A stretch of 37,563 nucleotides of DNA from Minisyncoccota bacterium (lineage in GTDB: Bacteria; Patescibacteriota; JACMRA01): contig JACMRA010000011.1 of NCBI GenBank assembly GCA_014376695.1, positions 1 through 37,563 on the forward strand. The letters run 5' to 3'. Each line of letters begins with the position of its first letter. Positions within the stretch are counted from its first letter, which is position 1. The notes beneath the pieces are model-generated. The model worked only from the letters and a program-made list of their open reading frames with translations, did no database searches and was not told the DNA's origin. Shown here one piece after another: positions 27,577 to 32,491 of this stretch. Position numbers and translations under genes: made by a program.

Positions 27577-28218
27577 ATGTCAAATCAAAACCCGAATAAG
27601 CCAGCCGCCGCTAACTTGTCTAATCAATTGGCCCTAGTAAATAACCAGCCACATACTACCCCTGCACCAGTCAAGCAAAGCCAGTATAAGAATCTAGGTC
27701 AAAAAATCAGAAAAGTCCTATTTTTGGGATTAATGATCGGATTTGTAATTATAGTTTCGGGTTTTGGCTATGTTTTGGCTAGTCAAGGTAGCGACGCTAA
27801 TAGTTACCAGTTTGTAGCTAGATTTCGGACGGCCGCCAAGTCATTTCAAGATTTAGGTGAGGTCGGTATTGGAGTGGCAAGTAGCAAGCCCGAAACACGT
27901 GCAGTCGATGCAGAGATTGACGACAGCGCGATTATTAACGCCAATAAGGCTTTTTACAATCCTCCAATCCCGGATTCACCCGATAATACTAAGCCCGAAG
28001 TTATCAAATCCACCAGTCAAGCAAGTAGCTCATCCAGCAGTGAAATTAGCTCGAGCAGTTCCCAGGGCGAGGCTCTAATTATCGAACCTGCACCAAAATC
28101 TTCAACTACAAGCATATCGGAGACAGTACCCCAAATCCCAACTAACCCAACCAGCGCAATAAGTAGTAGTATAATTTCAACTAAACCCGTAGGTACACAA
28201 ATTTTTAGGAGCCAATAA
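27577..28218 (+). CDS. single-pass membrane protein with Ser-rich extracytoplasmic tail
   Basis: 213 aa: cytoplasmic Asn/Pro-rich N-terminus, basic stretch KNLGQKIRK, one transmembrane helix at about 47-69, then a ~140-residue outside region whose last half is low-complexity Ser/Pro/Thr. No enzyme motif. Like the SH3b protein (12465-13076) and the LPXTG protein it uses a poly-Ser spacer, but it has no C-terminal domain after it. Divergent from sppA. The function is unknown; a structural or glycosylated surface protein is plausible. Confidence 0.75.
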   Translation: MSNQNPNKPAAANLSNQLALVNNQPHTTPAPVKQSQYKNLGQKIRKVLFLGLMIGFVIIVSGFGYVLASQGSDANSYQFVARFRTAAKSFQDLGEVGIGVASSKPETRAVDAEIDDSAIINANKAFYNPPIPDSPDNTKPEVIKSTSQASSSSSSEISSSSSQGEALIIEPAPKSSTTSISETVPQIPTNPTSAISSSIISTKPVGTQIFRSQ

Positions 28219-28499
28219 ACCTGTAATAGAGATTAGCTTTTACACAGTTTTTGATGGTAACATTGTTACTCCCTAAAATATAATTTCAAGCTCGACCCCA
28301 AAAAATCACAAGGTTAAAAGGCATAATTAAGGATTGAAAAATCCAAAAAAACTAGTTTGATTAAAATTTTTGTTACAAGTTAAAACTTGATATAAGCACT
28401 CTTTTGATTGACAAACTCGCAATTGTTAGCTAATTATAAGTCAAATAACAAATCAAAGAAATATTAACGATTAACTAATTGATACTAATTCTAACTCCT
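28219..28499 (+). other. 281-nt AT-rich intergenic region
   Basis: No frame and no strong promoter. Immediately after the 27577-28218 gene, CTGT...ACAG followed by five T (about 28219-28256) could be a weak terminator. A TTGACAAAC (28409-28417) has no good -10 at 17 nt. Nothing else seen. Confidence 0.4.
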
Positions 28500-29723
28500 A
28501 TGGCTGTCCTTCGAAATATTGATGTCTCAAACAAAATTGGTGTATCTCCCGCCACCGTCCAGAACTGGATAAAGTATTCTCTTGGCGGTAAAATCCACCT
28601 TGACCTGACCAAAATTGGCAACCGCCACTTCATCGAAGATAATCTCGAGAATATGGACAGGATGCAAAAGCTCAAAAATCAGGGAGTCAAATATCGCTCC
28701 AAAACTGATTGGTCATCTCACAGCGTCAACGACAAACTCTATGAGGTATTTACGGATCTGGAAATTGTGGATTTGATGCACCAGATCTCCTTTCACAAAT
28801 CTATCCCGCTCAAATATAGCTACACCGACGCTGGTATCAAGCCGTACCGAGAGGCCATCTTAGAAGAAGTTAAGAATAAGACCTTATCAACTTCGCTCGA
28901 GCAAAAGGCTACAGAGGGATTTTTGGATCAGATAATTTCCGGTTATGTTAACGATGGTTACAAGATTAATTTTGTGGAAATTGGTTTTGATTACCAGACT
29001 TTTAACGTCGGAGAGAATTTAAAAAAATTAGTAGATAACGGTCATTTACATAAGTATATCTCAATTAGTCATTCGGCCGAAATGCATCGTATTCGCAAAA
29101 AAGCTATTCATGAAGATATGAAATTACCGCAAGTCGATTTTGTGGCTGTTAAATTGGATTTTGAGACTGAGTCAATGCAAGAAGTGTTGTGGAGGCACAA
29201 ACAATCAGACAAAAATGAAAAAATTGCCAATATTTGCCTACTATTTAAAGGGGCGATAAGTAACTTTAAGCAACCAGAAACTATTATGGCCAAGATTGCT
29301 CAGTCATTGACCGGAGATGATACGTTGCTTATATCGACATATCTTACAGATCTTGACGGCAGGGACAAAGTTGAACGGGATATTAATATCAGCGCTAATC
29401 GAGCCAAACGACATGACTGGCTATTTAAATTACTAAATGTTTACAAAAATGCTGAATATAAAACCCACTTGTATGATACTAATAAAAGTATCCGTACACG
29501 GGAAGCTTGCTTTAAGGACTTTGTAGAGGTCAAATACAAAGTTTTTGGATACGACAGATCGATCAAGATTAAGAGGGACGATGTTATAACTTATTTTTAC
29601 AGCAAACGATTCACAGTTAATGAATTTACTAAAATCATACAGAATTCATTTAGGATTGACCAACTCAATCTTATTAATGACGAACAGATCATATTTTGCG
29701 CATTAAGTCTGCGCTCTATGTAA
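28500..29723 (+). CDS. HTH (MerR-like) - EgtD-like methyltransferase-fold fusion
   Basis: 407 aa from ATG 28500 (MAVLRNIDVSNKIGVSPATV); a TTG at 28479 would add seven residues. Residues 1-60: a MerR/excisionase-like winged helix (VSNKIGVSPATVQNWIK recognition region, then IGNRHFIEDNLENM). Residues 85-330: similar in order to histidine-specific methyltransferases of the EgtD family (Methyltransf_33): KYSYTDAGIKPYREAIL near the N-terminus, INFVEIGFDYQTFN in the motif-I position, HKYISISHSAEM for the 'piDiS' strand, and LFKGAISNFKQPETIMAKIAQSLTGDDTLLISTYL for 'lG.tIGNF'. The glycine-rich SAM loop (normally E-x-G-x-G) reads EIGFDYQ, so catalysis is doubtful. It is a likely transcription regulator with a ligand-binding methyltransferase fold. 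Confidence 0.75.
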   Translation: MAVLRNIDVSNKIGVSPATVQNWIKYSLGGKIHLDLTKIGNRHFIEDNLENMDRMQKLKNQGVKYRSKTDWSSHSVNDKLYEVFTDLEIVDLMHQISFHKSIPLKYSYTDAGIKPYREAILEEVKNKTLSTSLEQKATEGFLDQIISGYVNDGYKINFVEIGFDYQTFNVGENLKKLVDNGHLHKYISISHSAEMHRIRKKAIHEDMKLPQVDFVAVKLDFETESMQEVLWRHKQSDKNEKIANICLLFKGAISNFKQPETIMAKIAQSLTGDDTLLISTYLTDLDGRDKVERDINISANRAKRHDWLFKLLNVYKNAEYKTHLYDTNKSIRTREACFKDFVEVKYKVFGYDRSIKIKRDDVITYFYSKRFTVNEFTKIIQNSFRIDQLNLINDEQIIFCALSLRSM

Positions 29724-29724
29724 C

Positions 29725-29746
29725 AAAAAACCTCCTAAAAAGGAGG
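29725..29746 (-). terminator. intrinsic terminator of the Mur-ligase-like gene
   Basis: CCTCCT-AAAA-AGGAGG (6-bp stem, 4-nt loop); on the minus strand it is followed by six T. It ends the unit 29958-30482 and lies directly behind the stop of the convergent HTH fusion gene. Confidence 0.6.
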
Positions 29747-29957: not shown

Positions 29958-30482
29958 TTATTTTATTCTCATCAATTCTTGGAAGCTTTTTTCCCATTCT
30001 TTGCTTTCGTTCCACTCCATAATTCCACCAGGTTGAGTTAAACCGTTCTCGCTACCAACCCCCGTTGAGACAATTAGGATTTTTAGCGGGTCAGGAGTAA
30101 GCCGACCGTAGTTTTTTTGTAGATCAATAGCCTTTTTTATGGCCAAATCGAAGGCCTTCTTGCGCGAAGCAGTTACTTGATACTTTATGTCTTTTTGTTC
30201 GGGTGGTAGTTGCTTGCACAGCATTGCTAGTATTTCAATAGGATTGTCGCTGGCGTCGTAGTTATCGAGCGTCACCACCGAATAATCAGCGATATCGTAG
30301 CTGATCTTGCCCATAATTTCTTTTTTCCAGTTGTCTCGGCCTGCCCCATCGCACGAGACGATATGGATAATGCAGTCGTAGAGACCACGCGTGCGCCACG
30401 AGGCAATGGTCGTGAGCAGTTGCTTCATACTTTCTGGTTCGTGTGCGTAATCAACAAGTACGGAGATATTAGGTTGAGACAT
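29958..30482 (-). CDS. stand-alone Mur ligase C-terminal domain (MurE-like)
   Basis: 174 aa. Starts at ISVLVDYAHEPESMKQLL, the first strand of the MurE glutamate-ligase C-terminal domain (VDYAHTPDSL), then SCDGAGRDNWKKEIMGKI for 'GCGGDRD..KRP.MG', ADYSVVTLDNYDASDNPIEIL for 'AD..i.TsDNPR.E.P..I', AFDLAIKKAI for 'AI..A', and ILIVSTGVGSEN in place of 'aGKGHE'. The ATP-binding central domain and N-terminal UDP-binding domain are absent and nothing of them is upstream. The DNPR amino-acid motif and GKGHE are altered, so free-standing ligase activity is unlikely. It probably partners with another protein or serves a new role. Confidence 0.8.
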   Translation of the reverse strand: MSQPNISVLVDYAHEPESMKQLLTTIASWRTRGLYDCIIHIVSCDGAGRDNWKKEIMGKISYDIADYSVVTLDNYDASDNPIEILAMLCKQLPPEQKDIKYQVTASRKKAFDLAIKKAIDLQKNYGRLTPDPLKILIVSTGVGSENGLTQPGGIMEWNESKEWEKSFQELMRIK

Positions 30483-30712: not shown

Positions 30713-32491
30713 ATGGATACTAAATTCACAGAGAGGCGACTCCAAATAAGACGGGCGGAACCAAATCCTGGTCCAATTTTCGAGAAACAACCTCATGGAT
30801 ACCCTGGGACATGCCCTACCTCTAATCGAAGAAGCTCAGACAGACGTACAGACTTAACAGAGGGGACTAAGCTATGGTTACAAGAATACTTTAGGGGTCT
30901 CGGGGTGCCCGAAAATGATTTGCCCCAAACTCTTAGATACCTTCTGGGAACTAATTTCAAACTTGGATTAGAAACAAGACAGGGACTGACTGAATTTTTT
31001 TTGGGGAGGGGTTTATCGGATTTTCCGCCTTATGAAGAACACGAGAAAGATTGTGTATATGCTTTGTATGTAGATACTGAGAATCTCGGTAGTATTAACG
31101 TTGAGTATGGAATGAAAGCTGGAGATGCAGTGGTACAAGAGCAAGTAAGGCAAATAATTCTTTCTTTGTTGGGTTTTTTAGGTTATTATGTGATTATTTC
31201 AACGGGTGGAGATGAGGCTATGGCCGTTTCACGAAATAAACAAGTTATGATGTCGGTTGAAAACAAACTAAACCTCCAAAATAGTTTAAACCACACAGTC
31301 AAAGGAGGTGCGCCAGTGAATTTCTCCGTGAAGAGCGTCTACCCAGAGACTCCGGAAGAACACGAGATTTTGTCGGCGGCTTTGTCTATGCAGTCCCCGA
31401 TGGAGCTTAAAGAGGTTACAGCGATTGCAGGTAATAAGATCGAATACGAGGCGTACTTAGAGAAGGCTAAACAATGGAAGAGGTTTTACACTTACCTAAA
31501 CGAGAGTGTTGAGAATCAAGACCGTGTGTTAGAATTAATGTCCAGAACTAATGCGACAATTGGTCTATTCATAGATTTGATCAAAAAGCTGAATATTCAA
31601 AAAGAGGTGATTACCAGCTGTATCTCACCAATGCTATTTACAGACCAGACTTTAATACCCAGCGATATCGATCAGCTAGTGGCAAATATCTGCCGAACTA
31701 ATGTTATCAAGTCTAATGCCTTGGTTGATTTAGCTCTGTCCCTTGGTAGGTATGTTTTGGTTACCGACCCCAAAGTAAAAGTAGCTAATAGCCTTGGGCT
31801 GCAGGCAGGCGATCAACTCCTAGCCCAGACTCTTTGTCAGCAACAATCCCAATTTACGGAGGCTGAGTTGCGGTATCTTACTCCAATTACAAAAGGCCCT
31901 ATCCAAGTCTTTAGCCTCTTAGGTCTCGAAAATGCCAAAAGGTTGTCAGAATTCGAGATTGAGACTTACCGCAAATTAGAAGCTAGATTCAAACAAAAAT
32001 CAAAGCTCATCCAAGAACCTATAATCATAGAAGCCCCTGTGGCCATGCCGGTATCCCAAGCATATATAGATAGGCTTTCTAGGGAAAATATGCAAAATAT
32101 GCAAATTATGATGGAGTTAAATGAATCAGGTCTCAAAGTCTCTCAAATAATGAAGATAATCCAAACGAATATCGATTTGCAATGGTCACGGGATCTTATA
32201 AATCTTTTGAATACTCCAGAGAATCTAATCCTCCTAGAAGACCTAACTCATCAATTACAGAACCTAGGCAATCGAGAAGTTAAAGAATACTACTCAGACT
32301 ACATAGAAAACCTCGAATCCGCAAACGAACTAAGTTTTGTTAAGGCGATTATGATGATTAACCGAACCATGAGGTATATGGATGCGATGATTAGTATTCT
32401 AGAAGTTCAATCGCCCGGTGGTCGATTATTAGACTTATTAAAAAAGCACCATGCAGTTCTGTCGCTTAACCAAAACTCCCAACGACCTTAA
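30713..32491 (+). CDS. double GGDEF-domain protein (one nearly intact, one degenerate)
   Basis: 592 aa, soluble. Residues 1-50: basic, disordered (RRLQIRRAEPNPGP, NRRSSDRRTD). Domain 1 (about 112-245): ALYVDTENLGSINVEYGMKAGDAVV equals the 'D.D.FK..ND.yGH..GD..L' half, and ISTGGDEAMAV the GGDEF turn, here GGDEA; metal Asp121 and Gly-Gly-Asp-Glu 165-168 are kept. Domain 2 (about 340-405): YVLVTDPKVKVANSLGLQAGDQLLAQTL keeps the first half but the active loop is lost (LTPITKGPIQVF). C-terminal ~190 residues are helical. It may make or sense a cyclic dinucleotide or nucleotide; no membrane segment. Its end overlaps the convergent gene by 26 nt. Confidence 0.78.
   Translation: MDTKFTERRLQIRRAEPNPGPIFEKQPHGYPGTCPTSNRRSSDRRTDLTEGTKLWLQEYFRGLGVPENDLPQTLRYLLGTNFKLGLETRQGLTEFFLGRGLSDFPPYEEHEKDCVYALYVDTENLGSINVEYGMKAGDAVVQEQVRQIILSLLGFLGYYVIISTGGDEAMAVSRNKQVMMSVENKLNLQNSLNHTVKGGAPVNFSVKSVYPETPEEHEILSAALSMQSPMELKEVTAIAGNKIEYEAYLEKAKQWKRFYTYLNESVENQDRVLELMSRTNATIGLFIDLIKKLNIQKEVITSCISPMLFTDQTLIPSDIDQLVANICRTNVIKSNALVDLALSLGRYVLVTDPKVKVANSLGLQAGDQLLAQTLCQQQSQFTEAELRYLTPITKGPIQVFSLLGLENAKRLSEFEIETYRKLEARFKQKSKLIQEPIIIEAPVAMPVSQAYIDRLSRENMQNMQIMMELNESGLKVSQIMKIIQTNIDLQWSRDLINLLNTPENLILLEDLTHQLQNLGNREVKEYYSDYIENLESANELSFVKAIMMINRTMRYMDAMISILEVQSPGGRLLDLLKKHHAVLSLNQNSQRP

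Follow-up and report, generated by a model that had tools for sequence, protein, structure and literature searches.

A gene in the window, the 37,563-nucleotide stretch of DNA analysed here, joins an N-terminal MerR-like HTH to a domain with the fold of EgtD, the histidine N-alpha-methyltransferase. Its product is probably a derived, SAM-blind member of a new, EgtD-derived family of one-component regulators. We hold with moderate confidence that it acts as a transcription regulator of this undescribed Patescibacteria family, and that its sensor has lost SAM binding.

The window is contig C5 of a 956-kb genome that is 78% complete. The fusion gene (Table 1), for which an upstream TTG at 28479 is a possible alternative start, is a real coding gene, since its codon usage (0.038) equals that of the neighbouring genes (0.009-0.079); random synonymous recodings score at most -0.005. 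The preceding gene (27577-28218) lies on the same strand across a gap of 281 bp. The window holds no Rfam elements, and the fusion protein matches neither PADLOC nor PHROGs. Directly past the stop codon, a terminator-like hairpin on the minus strand (29731-29746) probably ends a convergent gene. Further downstream are an orphan Mur ligase C-terminal domain of 174 aa (29958-30482, minus strand; Pfam 1.3e-9), which lacks the catalytic domain, and a 592-aa protein (30713-32491, plus strand) with a weak and probably degenerate GGDEF match (8.8e-4).

Table 1. Features of the fusion gene and loci of the divergent partners in relatives
Feature	Position or loci	Strand	Remarks
HTH and EgtD-like (Methyltransf_33 fold) fusion gene	28500..29723	+	407 aa; single open frame, ATG 28500, stop 29721-29723
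Promoter-like TTGACA-18-AATTAT 5' of the fusion gene	28408..28437	+	10/12; such sites not clearly above chance frequency in the region
HTH, wing and following helix, residues 1-66	28500..28697	+	Family V15, W23, I24, N51, L58 and K64 all kept
EgtD-like domain, residues 75-404	28722..29711	+	AlphaFold2 model and Foldseek to EgtD; Pfam Methyltransf_33
Degenerate SAM motif I, residues 158-169, FVEIGFDYQTFN	28971..29006	+	GxG lost, one residue longer
Ser190 where EgtD has the ribose-binding Asp D113	29067..29069	+	Residue census and alignment to EgtD
Asp220, equivalent to EgtD D141, kept	29157..29159	+	Residue census
Phe249-Lys250 replacing conserved Leu-Gly (EgtD L160-G161)	29244..29249	+	Residue census
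Partner A	L049, L082 (twice), L083-L086, L088, L089, L095, L097; L087		L087 on the same strand
Partner B	L091, L092, L094, L096		
Partner C	L090, L093		

An HTH fused to an EgtD-type fold

Scanned alone, the HTH matches Pfam MerR_1 over residues 8-63 at 25.1 bits (cut-off 21.6), and the window protein matches a RacA-type HTH at 7.4e-7. This head is conserved across all 24 fusions that we collected, with a mean column identity of 54%. MerR_1 is matched by only two of the 24; most fit other generic HTH models, which beat MerR_1 in half of the family. The MerR-type dimerisation coiled coil is not present after the HTH: the model has a single helix (residues 49-60) and then the EgtD domain. The RacA-type match raises the prospect of a nucleoid or chromosome-anchoring protein, and in a PDB search with the HTH profile RacA also ranks first, though without significance (E 0.086). 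We consider this reading most improbable: RacA beyond its HTH is a coiled coil, only the MerR-like HTH is common to both proteins, and an EgtD domain and divergent partner genes fit regulation better.

Residues 75-404 are modelled as a Rossmann-type methyltransferase with the extra lobe of EgtD (AlphaFold2, pLDDT 84.6). In a Foldseek search with this model, PDB ranks 1-15 are all EgtD (E 1.8e-17 to 1.3e-14, target TM 0.75) and the first other fold appears at 5.9e-10, while the family profile picks out the solved structures of EgtD (E ~1e-27; next match 4e-5); the alignment behind both profile and model included one canonical EgtD, which slightly helped the fold call. Pfam Methyltransf_33 (PF10017) matches residues 170-383 of the window protein at 9.7e-5 and 22 bits, just short of its cut-off (23), and the relatives score 41-120 bits. 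TIGR03438, the EgtD equivalog, finds no match in the window protein and gives 24-94 bits on the HTH-fused and other relatives that it does match, against a cut-off of 290.9. By its sub-cut-off Pfam match, its relatives and its top structural match, EgtD, the window protein has the Methyltransf_33 fold and homology at the level of the domain. The original prediction of an HTH ahead of an EgtD-type fold is thereby upheld by the MerR_1 and RacA matches, the family profile and the structural model; the searches found EgtD and favoured no unrelated fold.

The SAM and histidine sites

The glycine-rich SAM loop had been described as broken, and so it is (EgtD residues are numbered as in M. smegmatis EgtD). 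The window loop reads EIGFDYQ with one extra residue, where all relatives but one have [DE]xGxG; G88 has become Asp164. A recent frameshift as the cause of the altered loop was ruled out: the flanks share one frame and the fold is continuous. We found two further losses in the SAM site, D113 to Ser190 and L160-G161 to F249-K250. In addition, F47, a Trp in the family, is Tyr116. The copy keeps Y39, E84 (as Glu160), G86 and D141. From the EgtD set of [DE]xGxG, D113 and D141, it fully keeps D141 only, and most relatives keep all. Because GxG and the ribose carboxylate are lost, ordinary SAM binding by the window protein is unlikely, by analogy with known class-I methyltransferases.

The family as a whole looks different. 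Across the 24 fusions, motif I is intact in 22, G86 and G88 in 23 each, D113 in 22, D141 in 23 and G161 in 21. The idea that the fusion was built on a dead methyltransferase does not stand: with motif I and the ribose Asp each intact in 22 members, a domain that binds SAM is normal for the family, and the window copy has departed from that state. Two other members show losses as well. L057 has lost D113, and in L071, the second tandem copy of genome G642, VNICIG replaces motif I, so motif I has decayed more than once. The tandem HTH-EgtD pair of G642 (L082:7923-10935, contig C11) comprises one intact and one motif-I-less gene, each with its own divergent partner A.

Leaving each member out in turn, we compared profile scores by region: the window HTH reaches 0.80 of its expected score, the SAM core 0.36 and the C-terminal part 0.17. 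A second fusion in the window's own genome (C14:28299-29489), with the intact motif IIDIGCG, reaches 0.40 and 0.17 in the latter two. This paralogue scores nearly as low as the window copy; overall divergence is thus a trait of the class, and only specific residues mark the window copy. The window copy is the longest branch of its clade (2.83-2.94) in a methyltransferase tree that supports the HTH clade, with a few HTH-less members, at 99/97 to 99/99, and its HTH and SAM-core scores are both the lowest of the 24. No close orthologue was found, so dN/dS is not computable. The long branch, the low scores, the lack of a partner or operator and the intact second copy elsewhere in the genome would suit a gene that is decaying into a pseudogene. 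We judge this improbable in view of the full-length frame, normal codon usage, conserved HTH, confident fold and many retained core residues.

The histidine site of EgtD consists of Y56, N166, Y206, E282 and S284 (PMC8593015 and PDB alignments). The window copy has lost Y56, Y206 and E282; S284 and an Asn near N166 are present. In the HTH clade E282 is never kept, and S284, Y56 and Y206 only rarely, which leaves the proposal of a histidine-type effector unsupported. The position of E282 is a Trp in 17 of the 24 fusions, mostly inside LLWRxxH, and other residues mostly stand in for S284 and Y206. The ligand of the HTH clade, if amino-acid-like, is therefore unlikely to be histidine. One genome speaks for a sensor of histidine, hercynine or ergothioneine: in the Patescibacterium G004 (L019:6560-11137, contig C7), an HTH-EgtD fusion adjoins an MscS-like channel gene and an apparent ergothioneine locus, formed by an EgtB-like gene (TIGR03440, 321 bits against a cut-off of 360) and an EgtD-like gene (264 bits against 291). 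This neighbourhood keeps the histidine-type ligand alive for G004 only, as a single case. For the window protein we rate such sensing as very improbable, given that EgtB occurs in only one of the eight genomes checked, that neither EgtB nor canonical EgtD is seen in the 78% of the window genome available, and that EgtD's residues for the histidine side chain and carboxylate are for the most part missing.

Relatives, divergent partners and a candidate operator

About 40 relatives were found, the 24 HTH fusions (window copy included) among them. The searches covered 380 genomes of the phylum, 393 genomes of the Saccharibacteria-like class (the class of G051, its name inferred from the labelled relative L049) and, by a degenerate DNA pattern, the GTDB set; the pattern gave 21 loci, some of them false (e.g., L035, L039, L040, L045 and L048). 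Pattern-based searches for the window protein in genome contigs and for its own-genome paralogue in viral contigs matched nothing. No relative was found in phages, and plasmid matches were mostly ordinary EgtD genes. In the set found, HTH fusions are confined to Patescibacteria, mostly to the one Saccharibacteria-like class, with up to four copies per genome. Stand-alone relatives of ~315 residues occur in Patescibacteria, Micrarchaeota, Pacearchaeota and Woesearchaeota. HTH-less copies include one in the cyanobacterium Anabaena azotica, and HTH-less or differently headed relatives also occur in DPANN archaea; no common neighbours were seen for stand-alone DPANN/CPR relatives. Three EgtD-like proteins carry other heads: Pfam HTH_17 in a Patescibacterium (L013:1474-2577) and, by inspection, a winged HTH (L033:4949-6166) and an IS1634-like N-terminus (L046:759-1871) in Micrarchaeota. 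The DNA-binding heads of L013 and L033 count for the regulator reading.

Almost every fusion gene at the Saccharibacteria-class loci has a small divergent gene of about 95-195 aa as its upstream neighbour, mostly across 70-350 bp. Three unrelated small-protein families (A, B and C; Table 1) provide the divergent partners of almost all these fusion genes, and the partner proteins tested have no convincing Pfam match. The model of partner A is a small beta-sandwich, with a pLDDT of about 92 for residues 31-108; a fold search returned no significant match or solved relative (best E 0.19). It occurs in 10 of the 393 class genomes, all within the 16 that hold the EgtD-like family (P about 2e-14, relatedness ignored), and 11 of its 13 strong matches adjoin a fusion gene while two do not.

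The intergenic regions share two patterns. TTGACA-18-TATCAT, on the partner's strand, has perfect copies in 7 of the 22 regions, and 6,600 shuffles, which preserved base or first-order composition only, gave none; it occurs nowhere else in the context loci or the window. The dyad ATGnTAC-11-GnAnCAT is present in 10 of the 17 regions, where 0.013 would be expected, with spacing off in one or two; both patterns were first found by eye, so the figures overstate the surprise, yet the margin is large. Perfect (11/11) long dyads stand in L049 and L085 (TATGCTACAC/GTGTAGCATA). In the relatives the dyad seems to lie between -35 and -10. The arrangement as a whole is that of a regulator of the back-to-back neighbour and perhaps of itself. 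The conservation of these motifs could be partly due to the partner's promoter alone.

Conserved candidate operators were thus found beside relatives, as a promoter and dyad between fusion and partner genes, and not at the window gene: its 281-bp upstream interval has no divergent partner, no TTGACA-18-TATCAT promoter and no dyad, and partner A is absent from its genome. Because of these absences, its regulatory role would be carried over by homology, from relatives at 20-25% identity.

The intact members may instead be SAM methyltransferases tethered to DNA, their substrate a protein or small molecule and perhaps the divergent partner itself, with the window copy an inactive duplicate and not a sensor. 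Retention of motif I, D113 and D141 in nearly all relatives would fit an enzyme, as would the HTH-less stand-alone relatives, which keep the whole SAM site and the EgtD-like N166, S284 and Y206. We regard this as unlikely, though not far-fetched: the HTH fusions have mostly lost the EgtD substrate residues E282, S284 and Y206, with varied residues in their place, and the repeated occurrence of an HTH and an operator-like promoter favours regulation.

Proposed mechanism and comparison with known systems

On the regulator reading, the N-terminal MerR-like HTH would bind an operator, and the C-terminal domain, a descendant of an EgtD-like SAM methyltransferase, would serve as a sensing or dimer module. 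In most members this domain should be able to bind SAM or SAH, and we infer that the signal is probably SAM or SAH combined with a second ligand other than histidine, because most members keep motif I, the ribose Asp and the adenine Asp. The window copy most likely works without SAM, because its DNA-binding part is kept and its SAM site is degraded in three places. It may be a constitutive regulator, have a changed ligand, or act together with its intact paralogue on C14. The view of a dead fold as the sensor of a transcription regulator is therefore right in part: a regulator with a defective SAM loop fits this copy, but a dead enzyme is not the design of the family.

A more specific version has the SAM-blind window protein and its SAM-competent C14 paralogue share DNA sites or form mixed dimers, their ratio setting the response to SAM or SAH. 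Such an arrangement would have arisen more than once, as the G642 tandem suggests, in a family controlling small back-to-back genes; we offer it as a speculation that is quite likely wrong.

Known systems resemble the window protein in parts. EgtD (PDB 4pim, 4uy6) has the same fold and domain order, and the window protein keeps the equivalents of Tyr39 and Asp141; unlike EgtD, it adds the N-terminal HTH, has lost GxG, D113 and G161, and does not keep E282, Y56 and Y206. With the MerR superfamily the family shares an HTH with a wing and, in the relatives, a dyad that seems to sit within the spacer of the divergent gene's promoter. It has neither the MerR coiled coil nor a known effector domain, however, and the relatives' spacer is 18, whereas that of MerR-regulated promoters is 19-20. 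Transcription factors in which an enzyme has been turned into a sensor are well known: an HTH is joined to an aminotransferase-derived domain in MocR, to one from a sugar kinase in ROK and to a biotin ligase in BirA. The enzyme fold here is instead that of an EgtD-like SAM methyltransferase. The window protein is neither a MocR nor a ROK regulator, but its mode of action is probably like theirs.

An EgtD-type SAM methyltransferase in such a role was not found in the family libraries and papers searched, and the literature search returned no HTH/Methyltransf_33 regulator. The family is directly testable, because it is multi-copy, has a candidate operator and is linked to three small-protein families. 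Should the intact relatives prove responsive to SAM or SAH, they would give host-dependent bacteria, a group about whose regulation little is known, a protein-based means of sensing methylation status.
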